From NCBI GenBank assembly GCA_014192425.1, contig BJHK01000004.1, positions 124,001-188,000 of the forward strand: a stretch of 64,000 nucleotides of DNA, read 5' to 3'. This document shows positions 3,495-12,665 of this stretch, piece by piece. Source of the DNA: Planctomycetia bacterium (GTDB lineage Bacteria; Planctomycetota; Planctomycetia; Pirellulales; UBA1268). Position numbers and translations under genes: made by a program. Numbering within the stretch: the first letter of the stretch is position 1; each line of letters starts with the position of its first letter. Below the pieces are notes generated by a model. That model was not told the DNA's origin. It saw only the letters and a list, made by a program, of their open reading frames with translations, and did no database searches.

Positions 3495-4637
3495 ATGCCC
3501 CCGAAGACGAAACGTTCCCCGAAGGCCGCCGTCGGCACGCTCCCGCCTGTCGACGTCAAGACCCACGGCCTGATCGTCGGCCTGGCCGACGAGGTCGCCA
3601 CGGCGGCGGAGAAACGCCGCGACCCGTGGCTCGACATCCCGACCCGCAGCCTGTCGAACGTCCGCTTCAACAAGGCGCGGAAGATCATCGAGATGGGTGG
3701 GCAGACCAACCGGCGTCAGCTCTTCAACCTCGCCCAGGCGAAGAGCTACATGCAGACGCTGCTCGTGGCCACCGGCTGCAAGCAGCTCATCGACCAGCAG
3801 AAGACGACCAGCATTCGCGGTCTGTATTACCTCCTCAAGCACACCATCGAGGGCACCCGCGAGGAGACGTTCGCCACCCAGGAAGAGTGCGACCCGATCA
3901 TCGAGGATCTGGAAGTCACGCTGGAAAGCCTCCGCGAGGAGCTGCACGTCTACGCCAGCAATCGCGGCGGCATGGTGGGGCCGATCACGCTCATCGACTC
4001 GGGAGACGAGATCGACTGCTCGCGGATGGGCTCGGGCGGCTACTCGATCCCGTCGATCGTCGAGGCCGACATCGTCAAGTTCAAGTCCTGTGACGCGAAG
4101 TTCATCCTCCACGTCGAGAAGGACACCGTGTGGCGCCGGTTCAACGAAGACAAGTTCTGGCGGAAGCACGCCTGCCTGCTCACCCATGGCGGCGGCCAGC
4201 CGCCGCGCGGCGTCCGGCGCATGCTCTATCGGCTCCACAACGAGTTCAAGCTTCCCGTCTACTGCCTGCTCGACAACGACCCGTGGGGCTACTACATCTA
4301 CTCCGTGCTCAAGCAGGGCTCGATCAACCTCGCCTACGAGTCGAAGCGGATGGCGATCCCCGAGGCCCGGTTCCTCGGCATCCGCTCCCGCGACTACGGC
4401 CGCTGCAAGCTCTCCCCGAGCGTGCAGATCGCCCTCAACGACACCGACATCAAGCGGGCCAAGCAGATCGCCGCCTATCCGTGGTTCGCGGGCAAGAAGG
4501 CGTGGCAGAAGGAGATCGAGACGATGCTCGCCAACGGCTTCAAGCTCGAGGTCGAGTCGCTGATCTCCAAGGACATCAGCTACGTCACCGACACCTACAC
4601 CCCCGAACGGCTCGCAGAGGCCGACTGGCTCGACTGA
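3495..4637 (+). CDS. top6A: DNA topoisomerase VI subunit A / Spo11-like protein
   Basis: About 380 residues, the usual size for Top6A. The winged-helix (5Y-CAP) domain carries TTSIRGLYYLLKHT; Tyr111/Tyr112 include the expected DNA-cleaving tyrosine. The Toprim domain supplies Glu208 in HVEKDTVW and the metal-binding triad Asp260-Asn-Asp262 in DNDPWGYYIYS. In a complete enzyme, A and the GHKL ATPase subunit B form an A2B2 type IIB topoisomerase. No B-subunit gene is next to it or anywhere in the window. ATG 3495 is chosen because upstream codons look non-coding. Top6A is sporadic in bacteria, so horizontal origin or a standalone Mini-A-like role is possible; full length and intact active site argue for a working protein. 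Confidence 0.88.
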   Translation: MPPKTKRSPKAAVGTLPPVDVKTHGLIVGLADEVATAAEKRRDPWLDIPTRSLSNVRFNKARKIIEMGGQTNRRQLFNLAQAKSYMQTLLVATGCKQLIDQQKTTSIRGLYYLLKHTIEGTREETFATQEECDPIIEDLEVTLESLREELHVYASNRGGMVGPITLIDSGDEIDCSRMGSGGYSIPSIVEADIVKFKSCDAKFILHVEKDTVWRRFNEDKFWRKHACLLTHGGGQPPRGVRRMLYRLHNEFKLPVYCLLDNDPWGYYIYSVLKQGSINLAYESKRMAIPEARFLGIRSRDYGRCKLSPSVQIALNDTDIKRAKQIAAYPWFAGKKAWQKEIETMLANGFKLEVESLISKDISYVTDTYTPERLAEADWLD

Positions 4638-4673: not shown

Positions 4674-4800
4674 TTGGGCATTCGGAGCCGCAGCCAAGGT
4701 GCGGCTCGAATGCCGGGCGGTCGCACATCCGGGCGACCGCGGCCGCCGCTGATCGGCGGCGGGCGGCCACTCGCAGAGACTGCGAGTGGAGCCGCCAGGG

Positions 4801-5112
4801 TGCCATCATCGCTTGCGCGGAGCCTGGGGTTTGCTTGGCGAGCATGAGTCGAAGCAGATGCCGGCGCCGCTGCCACGGTGCGACGACCGCTTGCGCGGAG
4901 CCGGGCTTCGCCCGGCGACCGTAAGCCGGAGCACACGCCGGGGCACCTGCCACGGTGCGACCACCGCCTGCGCGGAGCCGGGCTTCGCCCCGCGACCGTA
5001 AGCCGGAGCACACGCCGGGGCACCTGCCACGGTGCGACCACCGCTTGCGCGGAGCCGGGCTTCGCCCGGCGACCGTAAGCCGGAGCAGACGCTTTGTCGG
5101 CTGCGACGGCGC
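4801..5112. repeat. Tandem array of four ~77-bp hairpin-containing repeats
   Basis: Three units begin at 4881, 4958 and 5035 with an exact 77-bp period and few differences. A diverged unit starts about 78 bases upstream, near 4803. Each unit contains the stem-loop GCCGGGC-TTC-GCCCGGC and the motif GACCGTAAGCCGGAGC. Open frames on both strands read through the array but only repeat the same low-complexity peptide, so I treat it as non-coding, REP/BIME-like DNA. The rest of the 508-bp gap around it (4638-5145) holds only the top6A terminator. Confidence 0.85.
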
Positions 5113-5145: not shown

Positions 5146-5988
5146 TCACGCCTCTTCGCGCAGCAGCGGCGGGGGGTCGTCGAGCTCCTCCAGCTCCGGC
5201 GGCAGCTGCAGCTGCCGCATCGTCGCGTCGGTCTGCCGCATCCCCTCGGCCACCTCGTCCACCCGCTGGGCGATGTCGCTGACGTCCCGCGTGGCCACCG
5301 AACTTTCGGCGAGCGCCGCGATCTTCGCCTCCAGCCGCTCGATCTCCGCCCCCACCACGTCGAGCTTCCGCTTCGCCTCGTCGATGTTCGCCAGCCGGTC
5401 GCGGCTCGTCTTCAGGTGGTCCTCGAGCGCCGCCCGCATCTGGGCGTCACCATCGGCCGGCAGCTTCGCCAGCCGCTTCTCCAGGTCGGCGATCCGGCCG
5501 CGGATCGCATCGTCGTCGGTGTGCTGGAGAAATTCCGACAGGTTCGACGCCCCCCAGATCATGCGCAGGTAGCCCCACAGGAGCCGATCGAGCGATTCGA
5601 GCGTCCCACCGTCGGGCCCCTTGGCATCGGGTCCGCGGATGCTGCCGGCGAGTTCCACGAGCTTCAGGCAGTGGTCGCGGAGTGCATCGAAGCGGGCGAG
5701 CAGCGGCCGGGGCAGGCGGGCCCGGATCCGCTCGTAGGCCTGCCGGGCGCCGGCCGCCTCGGCCGCCCGCCGGGCACCGGCACCCTGCGCTTCGACGGCG
5801 CTGCGGAAGCGGTCGTTGGCGAGCATGCTCGCGAGGTAGTAGATCTCTCCGGCGGCCACCAGCGGGAGAATCACGCCGGGAAACCCGCTGACGAACGCCG
5901 CCGCCACCCCGCCACCGAAGAGGAGCAGGTTCCAGCGGGCGGTGAACGCGGCCTTGAGGTAGGCACCAAAGCGGGACAACACGGTCAC
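5146..5988 (-). CDS. Coiled-coil membrane protein at the end of the PspA/ABC cluster
   Basis: About 280 residues. Two adjoining hydrophobic segments lie near residues 15-55 (WNLLLFGGGVAAAFVSGFPG and VILPLVAAGEIYYLASML). They are followed by a long charged, coiled-coil-rich region rich in Lys, Glu, Ala and Leu. The C-terminus is acidic (PPELEELDDPPPLLREEA). The GTG start at 5988 overlaps the ABC ATPase stop codon and has GGGGAG four bases upstream, so the two are translationally coupled. No named family is recognised. The position suggests a membrane-associated partner of the transporter/PspA unit. Confidence 0.75.
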   Translation of the reverse strand: MTVLSRFGAYLKAAFTARWNLLLFGGGVAAAFVSGFPGVILPLVAAGEIYYLASMLANDRFRSAVEAQGAGARRAAEAAGARQAYERIRARLPRPLLARFDALRDHCLKLVELAGSIRGPDAKGPDGGTLESLDRLLWGYLRMIWGASNLSEFLQHTDDDAIRGRIADLEKRLAKLPADGDAQMRAALEDHLKTSRDRLANIDEAKRKLDVVGAEIERLEAKIAALAESSVATRDVSDIAQRVDEVAEGMRQTDATMRQLQLPPELEELDDPPPLLREEA

Positions 5989-5989
5989 G

Positions 5990-6895
5990 TCACTCCCCGG
6001 GCCGCTTGGCGGCCACCTCGACCTGCTCGATCCGCGCCTGCAGGGCGTTGACCTGCTCGTGGAACCAGGGCTCCGACTGCGTCTCCCGGGCCGGCCCCAC
6101 GGCGGCCGGCATGCGGATTTCCGCCGCGATCCGCCCGGGCGTCGTCGCCATGACAAACACCCGGTCGCCGAGATACACCGCCTCCTCGACGGAGTGCGTC
6201 ACGAACAGGACCGTTGCCTCCACCTCCCGCCAGAGCTTCACGAGCAGGTCCTGCATGTCGAGCCGCGTGGCCGGGTCGAGGGCCCCGAAGGGCTCGTCCA
6301 TGAGGATCACCCGCGGCCGCAGGATCAGCGTGCGGGCGATCGCCACCCGCTGCCGCATGCCGCCGGAGAGTTCGTGCGGATACTTCGTCGCGTCGCGGCG
6401 CGGATCGAGGCCGACCCGCGCGATCCACTCGGCCGCCTCGGCCTCGCGCAGCCGGCGTGGCACGCCCCGGCACTCCAGCCCGAAGGCGACGTTGTCGAGC
6501 ACCGTGCGGTTGTCGAAGCTCGTGTAGTCCTGGAACACCATACCCCGGTCGGCGCCGGGACCGACGACGGACCGGCCGAGCACCGTCACGCTGCCGCTCG
6601 TCGGCGGATGCTGCGGCTCGAGCCCCGCCACGAGCCGCAGCACCGTACTCTTGCCGCAGCCGCTCGGGCCGAGGAACGACGAGATCTCACCATGATCGAT
6701 GACGTCGGGGATCGTGAAGCTGACGTCGGAAATCGCCACGTACTCCCGGGGCGTGCCCTGGCCGTAGATCTTGGTGACGTTGCGAAACTCGACGGCCGCC
6801 GGCCGCTCGGCGGGGGCCGGCGTGGGTGCCGGGCCGCGGGCCGCCGTGGTTTCGGCTGCGGTGGCGGAAGCAGCGGCGGCGGGGACGTCACTCAT
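5990..6895 (-). CDS. ABC transporter ATP-binding protein, nitrate/sulfonate/taurine (NitT/TauT) type
   Basis: About 301 residues. After a ~30-residue Ala/Pro-rich leader, the nucleotide-binding domain shows Walker A GPSGCGKST, Q-loop VFQDYTSFDN, signature LSGGMRQRVAIART, Walker B RVILMDEPFGALD and the H-loop FVTHSVEEAVYLGDRV. The last two are typical of the NitT/TauT/SsuB subgroup. It powers the adjacent permease from the cytoplasm. The start ATG at 6895 overlaps the permease stop codon in an ATGA arrangement. Confidence 0.93.
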   Translation of the reverse strand: MSDVPAAAASATAAETTAARGPAPTPAPAERPAAVEFRNVTKIYGQGTPREYVAISDVSFTIPDVIDHGEISSFLGPSGCGKSTVLRLVAGLEPQHPPTSGSVTVLGRSVVGPGADRGMVFQDYTSFDNRTVLDNVAFGLECRGVPRRLREAEAAEWIARVGLDPRRDATKYPHELSGGMRQRVAIARTLILRPRVILMDEPFGALDPATRLDMQDLLVKLWREVEATVLFVTHSVEEAVYLGDRVFVMATTPGRIAAEIRMPAAVGPARETQSEPWFHEQVNALQARIEQVEVAAKRPGE

Positions 6896-7797
6896 GTCAG
6901 GGCCTCCGCGGGCCTGCCCGCGCCATGCAGCAGCCGGCGCAGCCCCTTCGGCAGCCAGCCGCGGCCGCCGTAGCGGTGCGGAAACAGGTCGCACTGCAGC
7001 CACCACAGCGCCCGGTCGATGGCGTAGGCGACCAGCGGGATGACGACGAGCACGATCACGATCGGCTCGCGGTCGCCGCGGCGCTGCGCGACGTTGATCA
7101 GATCGCCGAGGCCGCCGGTGTCGCCGCCGAGCTTCACCACCTCGGCGAGCATCACGTAGCCGAAGGCGATGCCGAACAGGAGCCGCAGCGAGTTGAAGAT
7201 CGCCGGCGCGGCCAGCGGCACCAGCACCTTGAGGATGATCTGCAGCCGCGAGGCGCCGAGCGTGCGAGCCGTGTCCACGTACCGCTCCGGCACATCGAGG
7301 ACGGCGGCCGTCGTGTCGCTGACGACGAACGCCACGCTGGCGATGAACAGAAACATGACCTTCTGAAACTCGCCGATCCCGAAGAAGAAGAACGTCAGCG
7401 GGATGAGCGCAGCGACGGGGATGTTGCGGCCGAAGATCGTCAGCGGGGCCACGAACGCCCGAACGGCGGGAAAGCAGGCGGCCACGACGCCGAGCGGCAC
7501 GCCGACAAGCCCCGCCAGGCCGAAGCCGAGGACCACCCGGCCGAGCGTCACGAGCGTGTTCGCCACGAGCCGACGCTCGCCGAACAGGCCCGGGACGGCC
7601 GCCAGTGTCTCCCCCGGGCTCGGCAGCGTGGCCGGGCTGATGAGCCGGCTCTCCGCCTCGCCGGCCGTGGCCATGAACCACACCGCCACCACGGCGGCCA
7701 CGCAGGTCGCGCCCCAGAGCAGTGCCGTTCCTGAACCCGTCTCGCCGCGAAGCGGCCGGGCCGGCGGCGGCGACGGCGAGGCCGGCGGCGGGGTCAT
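6892..7797 (-). CDS. ABC transporter permease, NitT/TauT type
   Basis: About 301 residues with a proline-rich N-terminal tail, then six predicted membrane segments. The binding-protein-dependent transport EAA loop reads YVDTARTLGASRLQIILKVLVPLAAPAIF (given here by its ends, near residues 180-205). A glycine-rich segment FGIAFGYVMLAEVV follows. It forms the inner-membrane channel of an importer with the ATPase at 5990. The start overlaps the binding-protein stop codon (ATGA). The substrate is unknown. Confidence 0.92.
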   Translation of the reverse strand: MTPPPASPSPPPARPLRGETGSGTALLWGATCVAAVVAVWFMATAGEAESRLISPATLPSPGETLAAVPGLFGERRLVANTLVTLGRVVLGFGLAGLVGVPLGVVAACFPAVRAFVAPLTIFGRNIPVAALIPLTFFFFGIGEFQKVMFLFIASVAFVVSDTTAAVLDVPERYVDTARTLGASRLQIILKVLVPLAAPAIFNSLRLLFGIAFGYVMLAEVVKLGGDTGGLGDLINVAQRRGDREPIVIVLVVIPLVAYAIDRALWWLQCDLFPHRYGGRGWLPKGLRRLLHGAGRPAEALT

Positions 7798-9572
7798 TCC
7801 TGCTCCGCGGCGTAGACCTTGATCTCCACGCGCCGGTTCAAGGCGTGGTTGTCGGGATGGTCATCGTCGGCCGGCCGATCCCAGCCCAGGCCGTCGACGG
7901 CGAACCGGCCGTCGTCGAACTTGAACTTCTCCACGAGCGCGTCCTTCACGGACCGGGCCCGTTCCAGCGACAGTTCCTTGACCATCGCCGCCGGCACCTG
8001 GCCGCGCATCGACGCGTCGGTGTGCCCCTCGATGACGATTCGGGCATTGCCGAACTGCTTGGCGAGGGCGCCGGCCTCGTCGAGGACGATGTCCACCCGC
8101 GGGTCGTAGGGCTCCTCGGTGTCCTTGCCGTCGATCCGCCGGATCACCTTCTTCCGCAGCTCGGCGCTGTTGGGGAAGAAGTGGATCACGATCGTGTTGG
8201 TGAGGATCTCCTCGTTCTCGGCCCGGATCTGCTGGACGGTCTTCGGTGCCAGCCGGGACGTGTACTCGTCCTTCGTCTCCGCATACTTCGGCTCCGCGCC
8301 GAGTTTCTGGATCACCGAGAAGTCCATCACCTGGTCGAAGGGGACGGGATTGTTGGCGATCGCCCCGATCTTCCGATAGAGCATGTACGCCTGCTTCCAG
8401 ATCCGCTCGAAGTTGGCCGGGTTGTTGCGGTTGATGAAGAACTGGTAGTTCTCGGCCCAGTTCGTCGAATGGGCGTCGCCGAGCATCTTCAGGGCGTCTT
8501 CGGCCGGGATCGCGTAGCCGTCGGCCATCAGTTTCGCGACCTCCGTGCGAGCCGTCTCAGCCTTGAGTTCGGCCATGGCGTCGAAGATCCCGCGGGCGAT
8601 CACCTCGATCTTGTCGGGATGATCCTTGGCGAAGTCGGCGCGGGCGAACCAGACGTCGGCGATCAACCGGTTGGCCGTCAGCGTCGTGACCAGCATCCGG
8701 TTCCCCTTGGCCTCGGCGAGATTGTAGATGTCCGGCGCCCAGGAGACGCAGCCGGCGAGGCTCTTGTCGCGGTTGAAGGCTGCCGCCGCCTCGAACGCCG
8801 TGTTGACGTAGACCATGTCGACGTCGGCCGGCTGCAGGCCGCCGGCGACGAGCATGTTGAGAGCGAAGAACTGGCTCGGCGAGTTCTGGGCCATGACGAG
8901 CTTCTTGCCGGCGAGGTCCTTGACCGTCTTGATCGTGTCGCGGACGACGATCCCGTCGCCGCCGTTGGAGAAGTCGACCTGCTGGTAGACCCGGGGCATG
9001 ATCCGTGAATCCTTGGCGAAGCTGTCGATGAACAGCGGGAGCATGTCGAGCGTCGCCCAGCCGATGTGCACCTCGCCGGCCGCGTAGGCGTCGCGCATCT
9101 GCACGGGATCGTCGATGAGCACGAGTTCGACCTTGAAGGGCTTGCCCCCCGGGGACTGCCAGACCTTGCCCGCCTTGAAGCCGTTGTTGGCGCGGATGAT
9201 CGGCGCCCAGCCGGCCCAGACATTGAGGGCGAAGCGGACGGTCTCGTCCTGGAGCGGCTTGTAGCCGCTCACGCCCTTCACCGGCGGCAGCCGCTCGGCG
9301 GGCTTGAACGTGTATTCCTTGACGGTCGTGGGCACGGAGAAGTCGGGAGCTTCGGTCATCCCCTCGGCACCGCCCCCGCCCCCTGAACCGCCGCCTGCCC
9401 CGGCCGGTCCGCCAGCGCCTCCCGGCCCGCCGGCCATCGGCCGCGGTCCCATGCCGGGCCGGCCGAGGCCGAACTGCTCGAGCATCCCGCCGCGCCACGC
9501 CGCCAGGCCGACGAGACCGAGGATCACCGCCCAGACGGCGAGCCAGAAGGGTGCTTTGGGTTGACCTGACAT
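7794..9572 (-). CDS. Fusion of ABC substrate-binding protein (NMT1/SsuA-like) with C-terminal OmpA domain
   Basis: About 592 residues. An N-terminal membrane anchor (FWLAVWAVILGLVGLAAW) is followed by a Gly/Pro-rich linker and a periplasmic binding-protein domain (residues ~120-470). That domain includes VRFALNVWAGWAPIIRANN and YAAGEVHIGWATLDMLPLFI, typical of NitT/TauT solute receptors. The last ~110 residues are an OmpA peptidoglycan-binding domain: IVIHFFPNSAEL, ARIVIEGHTDASMRG, LSLERARSVKDAL and LNRRVEIKVY. The receptor may therefore be tethered to the wall or a cell-envelope polymer. MSGQPK at 9572 is chosen because it precedes the signal-anchor directly. It is translationally coupled to the permease. 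Confidence 0.9.
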   Translation of the reverse strand: MSGQPKAPFWLAVWAVILGLVGLAAWRGGMLEQFGLGRPGMGPRPMAGGPGGAGGPAGAGGGSGGGGGAEGMTEAPDFSVPTTVKEYTFKPAERLPPVKGVSGYKPLQDETVRFALNVWAGWAPIIRANNGFKAGKVWQSPGGKPFKVELVLIDDPVQMRDAYAAGEVHIGWATLDMLPLFIDSFAKDSRIMPRVYQQVDFSNGGDGIVVRDTIKTVKDLAGKKLVMAQNSPSQFFALNMLVAGGLQPADVDMVYVNTAFEAAAAFNRDKSLAGCVSWAPDIYNLAEAKGNRMLVTTLTANRLIADVWFARADFAKDHPDKIEVIARGIFDAMAELKAETARTEVAKLMADGYAIPAEDALKMLGDAHSTNWAENYQFFINRNNPANFERIWKQAYMLYRKIGAIANNPVPFDQVMDFSVIQKLGAEPKYAETKDEYTSRLAPKTVQQIRAENEEILTNTIVIHFFPNSAELRKKVIRRIDGKDTEEPYDPRVDIVLDEAGALAKQFGNARIVIEGHTDASMRGQVPAAMVKELSLERARSVKDALVEKFKFDDGRFAVDGLGWDRPADDDHPDNHALNRRVEIKVYAAEQE

Positions 9573-9630
9573 GGAAGTCTCCTCACGGGGTGAATGGTGA
9601 TGCCGCCGCAGCGGTTCGCAGGGGAAACGA

Positions 9631-9933
9631 TCAGCCGCGGAATCGGGTCTGCGGCCGGGAGGAACCGGCCAGGTGCATGGCATGCATCAGGTCGTAGGCC
9701 GTGACCTCGCAGAGCAGGTGCGTGACCTTCTCGTGGGCCTCGGGGGAGAGGAGCGGCTCCACTTCCTTCATCAGGGTCACGACCCGCTTCTCCTGGGCTG
9801 CCAGTTCCTTCGCGTCGACCTTGCCGTCGGAGACGACGTCGAGAAAGGAGTCGAGCTTCCGGGCATACTCCGCCAGCAGCGCCGAATCGCTCGCGTCGTC
9901 GAACCACGGGGTCTTGCCTGTCGCCTTCGTCAT
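9631..9933 (-). CDS. Small soluble protein of unknown function in the PspA/ABC cluster
   Basis: About 100 residues, mostly helical and charged, with no signal peptide or membrane segment. The ATG at 9933 is preceded by a GGAGACCGAC-type ribosome-binding site; a longer frame to 10023 is less likely. It lies 58 bases upstream of the binding-protein gene and 91 bases downstream of the AAA+ gene on the same strand. I recognise no family. Confidence 0.7.
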   Translation of the reverse strand: MTKATGKTPWFDDASDSALLAEYARKLDSFLDVVSDGKVDAKELAAQEKRVVTLMKEVEPLLSPEAHEKVTHLLCEVTAYDLMHAMHLAGSSRPQTRFRG

Positions 9934-10024
9934 GTCGGTCTCCTCGGGTCGGGGTTTTGGAAGTTCGTGAACGTCGGTGAATGGAGTGTTCGAATGGTTC
10001 GCCGACCACTCTGGCCGGCTCATT

Positions 10025-11908
10025 CTATGATCGGACCACTTCGCGGATCGCCGCCAGCCGCTCCTGGAGCCGGGCCCGGCCGCCTGGCTCGCCGACCTTC
10101 CCCTTCCAGCGTTCGGGCAAAAACCGCTTCTCGGTGCACTCGAGCACCGCGGCGATCTCCTGCATCTCCTTCTCCAGGCCCTGGGCGCTGGGCATGAAGT
10201 CGTCGAGCGCCGCCTTCAGGTCCTCGGCCGTGATCGTGTCGGGGGCCGGCTGGCCGGCATCGGCGGCCCGCTCCAGCCCCTTGCGCCGGGCGGCGAGCAC
10301 GATGCTCTCGATATCGGCGCCGGACAGGCCGAGCTCCAGATCGACCGGCCCCGGCAGCCCCGGCGCGAGCCGGACGTGGGACTTCCGCGCCATGGCGGCG
10401 AACATCGCTTCCATCTCCGCCTGGTCGTGCGGATAGAAGAGGGGAATGTGGACCTCCGCCCGGCCCTGCCGCTTGAGGTCGATCGGCAGCAGGTCGGGAC
10501 GGCTCGTGAGCAGCATCCAGAGGATCTTGCCGCGGTAGCGGGTGTCTCCCATCTGCCGGGCGATCATGGAAAACACGCGGGCCGACGTCCCCGAATCTCC
10601 GTCGCTCTGCCGGTTGCCGAGGGCGGCGTCGGCCTCGTCGATCACCACGACCACCGGCCCGAGGCTGCGCAGCACGCCGAGGGCGTGCTCGAGGTTCCCC
10701 TCGGTCTCCCCGACGTACTTGCTGCGGAAGTTCTTGAGCACGACGCAGGGGATGCCGACACTACCGGCATAGCATTCGGCGATGAAGCTCTTGCCGGTGC
10801 CCACCGGACCGCAGATCAGGTAGCCCATCGGGGCGGCCTCCAGCTGCCCGCGCCGGATCGCCCGGGCATCGGCCTCGAGCCGCTGCTTGGCGTCGGCATG
10901 CCCGGCGACCGCGTCGAGCGTCAGCCGCGGCTGGATGAACTCGATGAGGCCGTGGCACGACCGCTCGATGAGGTCCTTCTTCCGGGCGGCGAACTCGGGC
11001 CCGTCGGGGGGCGTGCCGTCGCGGGCGGAGAGCGTGACGACGGCCCGCAGGCTCTCCAGCGTCAGCCCACCGGCGATCGCGGCAGCCCGCTTCACACCGT
11101 CGATCTGGCCGGGCTTCATGCCCGCCGCAGCGGCCGTCGCCAGCGCGAACCGCTCGCGCTCGGATGCATCGGGCATCGGCACGTCGATGGCGCTGACCGC
11201 GGGATTCTGCACGAGCCGCGGATGGACCTCGGCGATCGTGTCGGCAAGCAGGACCACGGCCACGTTGACCCGCCTGAGGAGCGGATTCGTCGCCCAGCCC
11301 AGGATGCGGACGAGCCGCGCCGCCGCGGCCCGCGTCCCCCCCTCGCCGGCCGGCACGAGATACTGCGCGTAGTCGAGCACGACGGCGATCCGCTTGCGCT
11401 GCTCGGGGGGATCGATCAGGTTGCGTTCCAGGATCGCGTCGATCGCGGCCACGGCCTGGTCCGGATCCCGGGGCCAGGTGGCGGCGTTGCCCGCGCGCTC
11501 GGTGAGCCATTGGGCCATTGTCCGCAGCCGCGCCGGGTCAGGCCCGGCGAGCGGCCGCAGGCCGCGGCCGACGTCGTAGGCCAGCACCACGTCCCAGCGG
11601 CCGAACATCTCCCGCGCCAGAAAGTCGGTCGTCGTGCCCCAGGCCGACGGCTCCGCCCCCGGGCTCGCGGCCTGCGCGGAGACCGGCACGAGGTCACGGA
11701 CGTTGCCGTGCAAGAGAAAGACACAGCTCGTGCCGGAGAGATACGCGTCGCCGAGCCGCTCGGCCCACGGCGGACACCAGGCCGGCAGGGCGCCCGAGGA
11801 TCCGGAGGCGGCCGATGTGCCGAGCGCGGTCGGTGCGGATGCCGCCGCCTCCGGGGCAGCGGTCGCGACGGGCATGGAGGATGTGCTCACGGTCGAATCC
11901 TGCGGCAT
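10025..11908 (-). CDS. AAA+ ATPase with degenerate N-terminal ATPase-like lobe
   Basis: About 627 residues. The C-terminal half is a classic AAA module: Walker A GPVGTGKSF near residue 370, Walker B VVVVIDEADAAL near 426, sensor 1 LLTSRPDLLP, and a lid with LSGADIESIVLAARRKGL. The N-terminal ~300 residues resemble an ATPase fold without an obvious Walker A, but with FLLHGNVRDLVP and RIAVVLDYAQYLVP. That layout suggests an inactive first lobe. Only seven bases separate it from the upstream pspA-like gene, so the two are surely co-transcribed. By analogy with PspA partners, it may remodel PspA or ESCRT-III-like polymers; this is inference. Confidence 0.88.
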   Translation of the reverse strand: MPQDSTVSTSSMPVATAAPEAAASAPTALGTSAASGSSGALPAWCPPWAERLGDAYLSGTSCVFLLHGNVRDLVPVSAQAASPGAEPSAWGTTTDFLAREMFGRWDVVLAYDVGRGLRPLAGPDPARLRTMAQWLTERAGNAATWPRDPDQAVAAIDAILERNLIDPPEQRKRIAVVLDYAQYLVPAGEGGTRAAAARLVRILGWATNPLLRRVNVAVVLLADTIAEVHPRLVQNPAVSAIDVPMPDASERERFALATAAAAGMKPGQIDGVKRAAAIAGGLTLESLRAVVTLSARDGTPPDGPEFAARKKDLIERSCHGLIEFIQPRLTLDAVAGHADAKQRLEADARAIRRGQLEAAPMGYLICGPVGTGKSFIAECYAGSVGIPCVVLKNFRSKYVGETEGNLEHALGVLRSLGPVVVVIDEADAALGNRQSDGDSGTSARVFSMIARQMGDTRYRGKILWMLLTSRPDLLPIDLKRQGRAEVHIPLFYPHDQAEMEAMFAAMARKSHVRLAPGLPGPVDLELGLSGADIESIVLAARRKGLERAADAGQPAPDTITAEDLKAALDDFMPSAQGLEKEMQEIAAVLECTEKRFLPERWKGKVGEPGGRARLQERLAAIREVVRS

Positions 11909-11915
11909 GCCACGG

Positions 11916-12665
11916 TCAGTTGGCCTTCTGCACCACCCGCTCGGAACCGAGTTCCTTGTCGTCGGCCTTCACGCCGGCCGTCTCGGGGGTGACCATGCCC
12001 ATCTGGATCTCGAACTCGCGAAGTGCCTGATCGGCCAGCGCCTTCTCCACGCCCTCCTCGCGCTTAATGCTGTCCAGTCCTTCGCCGGAGAGGTCCGCCG
12101 CAACGCGAACCTTGGCCCGATTGAGGCCGATCTTGTCCTGGATGACGTCCTCGATCTGGCCGAAATCGGTGGTGATGTCGAAGTTGAAACTCGTCGCCAG
12201 TTTGGCCAGCTCTGCCTCCGCTCGCGAGAGCTTCAGCTCGGCGTCGTACTTCTGGATCTTGTCCTTGAGATCGGCGAGCTTCTTCGTGGCGTGCTTGATC
12301 TTGGTGACATTGTTGTTGTAGGCCGTCTCGTGGAGCTGAAGCTGGGCCTCGTTCTCGGCGAGCTCCTTCTTCGCCTTCTGCAGCTCGAGGGCGAACCTGG
12401 AGGCGGTTTCGCGCTCGCCGGCCTGGAGGTAGGCCTTCACCCGGGCTTCGAGCGAGGCGACGTGCTGCCGATCGCCGTTGACCTGCCGGGTCACCCGTTC
12501 GACGAGCGCCCGGTACTGCTCCAGTCCCTCCCGACCCTCCTTCATCTGGTCGACCGCCTTGTCGTACTCGTACTGCAGTTGGGCGATCGGGTCGGCGGTC
12601 CAGAAGAAATTGGCGATCTTGTTCATCTGGGCCGCGAGCGTCTTCCAGAGCTTGCCGAGGATCAT
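11916..12665 (-). CDS. PspA/IM30 (Vipp1) family protein
   Basis: About 249 residues, nearly all amphipathic alpha-helix and coiled coil. It has the family N-terminus (KLWKTLAAQMNKIANFFW, DPIAQLQYEYDKAVDQMKEG). PspA/IM30 proteins are ESCRT-III-like and form rods or rings on the inner face of stressed membranes. MILGKLW at 12665 is chosen as the start; the longer open frame upstream lies antisense to the oxidoreductase gene. It is the first gene of the minus-strand cluster that continues to 5146. Confidence 0.88.
   Translation of the reverse strand: MILGKLWKTLAAQMNKIANFFWTADPIAQLQYEYDKAVDQMKEGREGLEQYRALVERVTRQVNGDRQHVASLEARVKAYLQAGERETASRFALELQKAKKELAENEAQLQLHETAYNNNVTKIKHATKKLADLKDKIQKYDAELKLSRAEAELAKLATSFNFDITTDFGQIEDVIQDKIGLNRAKVRVAADLSGEGLDSIKREEGVEKALADQALREFEIQMGMVTPETAGVKADDKELGSERVVQKAN

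Follow-up and report, generated by a model that had tools for sequence, protein, structure and literature searches.

We think it somewhat probable that the seven genes read on the minus strand at positions 5146-12665 of the window (i.e., the whole 64-kb stretch of planctomycete DNA that was analyzed) encode a PspA polymer system equipped with a dedicated motor for taking the polymers apart, which is often joined to a wall-tethered ABC importer. The genes run in the order pspA, AAA+, g3, SBP-OmpA, permease, ABC ATPase and g7 (Table 1). All seven, the pspA, AAA, SBP-OmpA and transporter genes among them, lie where a first-pass annotation had placed them, and the parts named in its title for the cluster (PspA/IM30-AAA+-SBP::OmpA-ABC) were correct, but that title omitted g3 and g7, both of which are conserved. 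The tight spacing that it had described holds for the 7 bp between pspA and AAA+ (11909-11915) and for the ATGA overlaps that join SBP-OmpA to the permease gene and the latter to the ABC ATPase gene, which is itself separated from g7 by 1 bp, but not for the regions flanking g3, where the AAA+-g3 gap is 91 bp and the g3-SBP-OmpA gap 58 bp. Clear ribosome-binding sites precede the g3 and SBP-OmpA starts, and since that of g3 is GAGGAG, g3 probably starts at 9933 and not at 10023. From this layout the seven genes are predicted to form one apparent operon. A consensus scan upstream of pspA revealed no sigma-70-type promoter, and an RNA search of the window detected no RNA elements within the operon, the only ones in the window being two tRNAs. 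Directly downstream of g7 there is a 77-bp tandem unit (3.9 copies, 88% match, window 4794-5092), and the operon is adjoined by a bacterial topoisomerase VI subunit A/Spo11-like gene (PF21180, PF04406; window 3498-4637, plus strand), a relative of which was also found near the operon in loci L061 and L093.

Table 1. Genes of the apparent operon and the codons of the PspA tail (positions in the window).
Feature	Position	Strand	Description
pspA	11916..12665	-	PspA/IM30 (ESCRT-III-like), 249 aa; PF04012 (PspA_IM30) 51.4 bits, gathering cut-off 33.9
PspA tail codons, residues 237-243 (KELGSER)	11937..11957	-	motif [KR]-x-[LMI]-G(-P)
AAA+ ATPase	10025..11908	-	627 aa; PF00004 (AAA) 74.6 bits
g3	9631..9933	-	100 aa; predicted helical; no known domain
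SBP-OmpA	7794..9572	-	hydrophobic anchor, NMT1/TauA/SsuA-type domain (NMT1 33.2 bits), C-terminal OmpA-like domain (PF00691, OmpA, 42.3 bits, cut-off 27.2)
permease	6892..7797	-	TauC/SsuC/NrtB-like; PF00528 (BPD_transp_1) 68.2 bits; EAA-type loop
ABC ATPase	5990..6895	-	TauB/NrtD-like; PF00005 (ABC_tran) 97.5 bits; catalytic motifs all intact
g7	5146..5988	-	GTG start; N-terminal hydrophobic hairpin and long helical domain

The profile of the window PspA matched solved Vipp1/PspA chains (E 1.5e-13), and from its family membership the protein may be expected to polymerize and to remodel membranes. Its tail carries the residues K-E-L-G (237-240), and an alignment of 34 divergent PspAs encoded at such loci showed the motif [KR]-x-[LMI]-G(-P) near the C-terminus, following a linker that is constant neither in length nor in sequence. 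Position 237 was K or R in 34/34 of the aligned proteins and position 240 was G in 32/34; the four-residue form [KR]-x-[LMI]-G was likewise kept in 32 of the 34, the exceptions being the proteins of L038 and L041, where the AAA is present. Among 62 non-redundant PspAs of the loci, the tail classes KxhGP, KxhG, KTh-COOH and LPE-COOH were found 28, 15, 5 and 9 times, respectively (57 in total), vs 0, 3, 0 and 0 times among 27 canonical planctomycete PspAs, the 3 being of the loosest form; shuffled tails predict ~0.1 KxhGP. The LPE-COOH tails accompany the most diverged AAA proteins.

The tail also tracked the AAA from genome to genome. A tailed PspA was present in 29 of the 32 planctomycete genomes with AAA and a readable PspA, vs 2 of the 28 with PspA and without AAA. 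Both counts were obtained after inspection: the regular expression matched all 32 AAA genomes, of which 29 were kept as having genuine tails (G003, G108 and G079 were excluded), and five chance internal matches were removed from the 28 genomes without AAA. The two genomes with a strict tail and no detected AAA, G131 and G187, are ~81-82% complete, so that the AAA may have been missed there. In seven AAA genomes, the window's own included, there are also canonical PspA paralogues that lack the tail (G000:C46:3193-3840, L001, and G000:C34:11418-12065, L002, in the window genome). If the tail serves the AAA, a genome with an unlinked AAA should have a tailed PspA elsewhere, and this expectation was run on the five genomes of the acidobacterial sample in which the AAA lies away from any pspA: a PspA with [KR][ST]LGP near its C-terminus was found elsewhere in each of the five. 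Furthermore, the tail was present in genomes where AAA but no SBP was found (e.g., G009, G027, G065, G076, G081, G130 and G174), and this finding, together with the tracking of the AAA, makes the AAA, and not the importer, the best-fitting partner of the tail. The tailed PspAs seem to belong to a single subfamily, so that the association of tail and AAA is in part due to shared ancestry. It would take independent losses to tell function from descent, and G102 (79% complete) is possibly one such case, with a PspA of the tailed type (184 bits) that has no tail, and no AAA found.

The C-half of the AAA+ protein is a classic AAA module, with Walker A K373, the pore-loop YVG at 398-400, Walker B DE424-425 and the arginine fingers R480/R483. 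K373, D424, E425, R480, R483 and G400, as well as an aromatic residue at 398, were present in 36/36 aligned AAA sequences, and a Walker A in the N-half (~42-300) in 0/36. The best solved relatives of the protein were VAT/p97/Cdc48. The N-half matched the C-half only weakly, though in register (P-value 0.017, probability 2.7%), the match taking in Walker-B-like, sensor-like and lid-like segments, which would agree with the 'inactive AAA' described in print. Neither a MIT nor a Vps4_C domain was listed in a Pfam scan with E up to 1, so the protein was not filed as a Vps4 orthologue. In five genomes (G040, G061, G269, G253 and G357) the AAA was found and no PspA of the tailed family was detected; therefore, the ATPase may have other substrates. 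A plasmid search showed that five Bacillota megaplasmids carry distant relatives of the AAA, with 26-35% identity for those on the Paenibacillaceae megaplasmids L290, L291, L292 and L293, and none of the four Bacillota megaplasmid regions inspected has an annotated pspA near the AAA; another substrate or a phage-plasmid context is possible for these proteins.

The genomes searched were 246 spread over Planctomycetota, one per species of GTDB r220, and 199 of Acidobacteriota; the flanks of the loci were annotated with iterated HMMs, and linkage was counted only where the AAA is flanked on each side by 5 kb or more. The conservation check that the first-pass annotation had proposed gave a divided answer: among close relatives, the importer was linked in 22 of 28 full-flank loci (pspA in 26), but in the phylum-wide even samples it was linked in only 10 of 31 planctomycete loci (pspA in 24) and 9 of 22 acidobacterial loci (pspA in 13). 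Every full-flank locus with the importer also had pspA, including all 19 of the phylum-wide samples. From these counts, PspA and the AAA constitute the core and the importer is a frequent partner. Two gene orders were observed, pspA-AAA-g3-SBP-permease-ABC-g7 in close planctomycetes and the window, and pspA-SBP-permease-ABC-g7-AAA(-g3) in Acidobacteriota and distant planctomycetes. In four planctomycete genomes pspA-SBP-permease-ABC-g7 (L176, L177, L179 and L180) and the AAA (L144, L143, L138 and L146) are on separate contigs, and pspA+AAA pairs also occur with neither importer nor g7 nearby (e.g., L039, L043, L044 and L132). An AAA scoring >200 bits was present in 35 of the 246 Planctomycetota genomes, and the operon is patchily distributed at the phylum level. 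A strong SBP (>250 bits) was present in 20 genomes, and 18 of these also carry the AAA vs ~2.8 expected, a figure uncorrected for relatedness. The six main proteins diverge in step with one another (pairwise distances, Mantel r 0.82-0.95, p=0.001; 28 non-redundant loci, 999 permutations), so the set was mostly inherited as a unit; because the distances co-vary and dozens of divergent loci in two phyla carry the same set, the association is not due to chance.

Variant loci were also found. A vWA protein with a membrane or lipoprotein-like N-terminus recurs with the SBP in some of them (L227:3461-4249, L181:7440-8336, L182:10523-11425, L105:13950-14816, and L112, L038, L041, L051, L052, L054, L242 and L243). 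In L051, L052, L054, L242 and L243 a larger variant, the gene order of which varies, carries genes for the vWA protein, several SBP-like proteins, a 2-TM helical protein, an LPE-ending PspA-like protein, the SBP, the permease, the ABC ATPase and a diverged AAA, and in these loci a different type of tail goes with a different subtype of AAA.

The two genes missing from the earlier title are both helical in their AF2 models (four helices and pLDDT 84.6 for g3; all-helical and pLDDT 88.1 for g7), and neither gave a credible Pfam or NCBIfam match (none at all for g3). g3 was found in 70 loci, directly after the AAA in both gene orders among close relatives. A MIT-like domain was considered for g3 and rejected, as the 7 rows that Foldseek returned were all weak (E 1.6 at best) and none reached Z 2, a no-match that is not proof. 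In lineages without g3, a coiled-coil-like unannotated protein is in most cases encoded immediately behind the AAA gene or close to it (L134:8647-9270, L136:8225-9013, L138, L140, L144, L145 and L181) and is possibly a g3 replacement; no similarity was detected between g3 and the different AAA-adjacent gene of L134/L136/L140. g7 was found in 76 loci, directly 3' of the ABC ATPase gene in most of the transporter-bearing ones, and it accompanies pspA and AAA without the importer in L042, L221 and L222. The protein is predicted to have a hydrophobic hairpin at ~19-57 (hydrophobic segments 28-57), and its PPxLR-like end is conserved. The idea that g7 is a second ESCRT-III protein was not supported: profile comparison with PspA gave a probability of only 2-3%, and the fold search returned generic helical bundles, with BAR/F-BAR rows at Z 7-9, as is usual for any helical bundle. 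Nor did g7 show similarity to the 2-TM helical protein encoded in loci of the L051 type.

The receptor of the importer appears to be fixed to both membrane and wall. SBP-OmpA has a hydrophobic anchor at residues 7-25 and matches TauA 6ssy (its binding domain being nearest to TauA/SsuA) and OmpA 3td3. In the OmpA domain D519 was present in 25/26 and R538 in 26/26 sequences, in GHTD and RA motifs that align with 3td3, and we take this Asp/Arg pair to be the diaminopimelate-binding residues of the OmpA-like domain. A second SBP in L136 starts with a lipobox-like sequence, LMTGCS, which is an alternative anchor. The EAA-like loop of the permease is VDTARTLGAS. A literature search retrieved no papers on SBP-OmpA fusions. 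Lipid, which the first-pass annotation had offered as one cargo, is not supported: the ATPase, the permease and the binding protein are nearest to taurine/sulfonate/nitrate-type small-solute importers, and a Pfam scan of the operon found no MCE, Lpt or other lipid-carrier domain. TauABC/SsuABC/NtrBCD-type models gave the three parts their top scores or scores close to the top, but all below the NCBIfam equivalog cut-offs (TauB 205.8 vs 357; TauC 95.6 vs 342; taurine SBP 45.9 vs 490), and hence no solute is named. This shortfall counts against the view that the locus is in essence a nutrient importer of the taurine/sulfonate/nitrate-like kind to which stress genes have been added, PspA and the AAA only protecting the membrane during transport; the profile matches speak for it, but of all the parts the importer is also the one most frequently absent from loci that keep pspA+AAA, so we consider this view very improbable.

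Taken together, these data suggest the following mechanism for a PspA polymer system with its own motor. PspA would polymerize on the cytoplasmic face of the inner membrane, as expected from its family. The AAA+ protein would form a ring whose catalytic half, judging from the catalytic and pore-loop residues, threads polypeptide, and whose N-half may act as the substrate receptor. The PspA tail, [KR]-x-[LMI]-G(-P), would be the handle gripped by the AAA, as its tracking of this protein suggests, so that PspA subunits could be extracted for reuse, much as Vps4 acts on ESCRT-III. Gene order suggests that g7 may anchor or nucleate the assembly beside the importer and that g3 could be a cofactor of the AAA in close relatives. 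A small solute would be imported via a receptor fixed to membrane and peptidoglycan, and the importer might tie PspA remodeling to the state of the solute or of the envelope, which is the least certain step.

The same proteins could be arranged differently. The AAA might be an assembly chaperone for membrane complexes, such as the importer or g7, with PspA recruiting it to the membrane, and the PspA tail might only dock it there, PspA itself staying unthreaded. Chaperone-like roles for PspA-linked AAA+ proteins are favored by Ravi et al. 2024 (PMC11237479), the AAA occurs in a few genomes without a detected PspA, and its best solved relatives are p97/Cdc48/VAT-type segregases of broad substrates; but the importer is not an obligate client, as the pspA+AAA pairs without importer or g7 demonstrate, and we regard this arrangement as rather unlikely. 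It is improbable that the tail has a partner other than the AAA, for instance g7 or the ABC ATPase, through which it controls the importer, and that the AAA is a separate stress ATPase retained in the operon. The position of g7 next to the ABC ATPase gene, and the four loci in which pspA is found with the importer and not with the AAA, would agree with such a partner; however, the genomes of these four loci still hold the AAA elsewhere, and the tail persists where the SBP was not found. Anti-phage defence was also rejected, since the PADLOC rows were weak AAA, coiled-coil or OmpA cross-matches.

PspA/double-AAA+/ABC/permease/PBPB-OmpA operons (example OGG56892.1) have already been reported by Ravi et al. 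2024 (PMC11237479), and the window, where the pspA, AAA+, ABC ATPase, permease and PBP-OmpA genes are all in one operon, is therefore a member of a known association; by description the gene set is the same, the AAA with an inactive N-terminal copy included. There the authors proposed, without experiment, an ATP-dependent membrane remodeling tied to solute transport. The envelope-maintenance machine of the first-pass annotation fits this proposal and the parts found here, but the linkage of the importer is only partial across relatives. When the main text of that paper was searched, neither Planctomycetota nor Acidobacteria, MIM or a C-terminal motif turned up, and the TM-bearing 'Snf7 homologue' described there may correspond to g7, for which no homology to PspA was detectable. 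As far as the searched literature shows, four things are added here: the tail, the way it follows the AAA even in genomes where the two genes lie apart, the second gene order, and g3.

The system shares with ESCRT-III/Vps4 an ESCRT-III-superfamily protein and a classic AAA that has arginine fingers and an aromatic residue in pore loop 1. In both, the subunit of the polymer ends in a short peptide; in ESCRT-III this is the C-terminal MIM, which the MIT domain of Vps4 binds, and the Vps4 pore unfolds ESCRT-III (PMC7618577). It differs in that the window AAA has a degenerate N-half and no MIT/Vps4_C match in the Pfam scan. The sequence of the PspA tail is, we presume, also different from MIM sequences. 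By analogy, the AAA most likely works like Vps4 on PspA polymers, with a putative grip on the tail, but is not a Vps4 orthologue. A structural study of PspA (PMC11746142) compares PspA with Vps4 and, as to disassembly, goes no further than suggesting chaperones or PspF. The E. coli-type pspFABC system also combines a PspA-family protein with an AAA+ protein, but PspF activates transcription, is of the NtrC type and contains a DNA-binding domain, whereas the window AAA belongs to the classic clade (p97/VAT-like) and no DNA-binding domain was found in it. TauABC/SsuABC are among the nearest relatives of the importer ATPase, permease and binding domain by profile, but in the window the binding protein has a membrane anchor as well as an OmpA-type domain.

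A wider reading, which we put forward tentatively as quite possible, is that bacteria have a dedicated ESCRT-III disassembly system in which a classic AAA, through a pseudo-AAA receptor half, reads a MIM-like C-terminal tail code of PspA, [KR]-x-[LMI]-G-P, and couples filament turnover to a wall-tethered importer. The code would be carried by the cognate PspAs and not by the ordinary PspA paralogues of the same cell, and its KTh-COOH and LPE-COOH variants would go with diverged AAA subtypes. The tail motif turns the vague notion of a PspA near an AAA into a specific two-protein prediction on bacterial ESCRT-III disassembly, and, if this is true, the pairing of ESCRT-III and AAA proteins via a C-terminal peptide would extend beyond archaea and eukaryotes, by common origin or by convergence.
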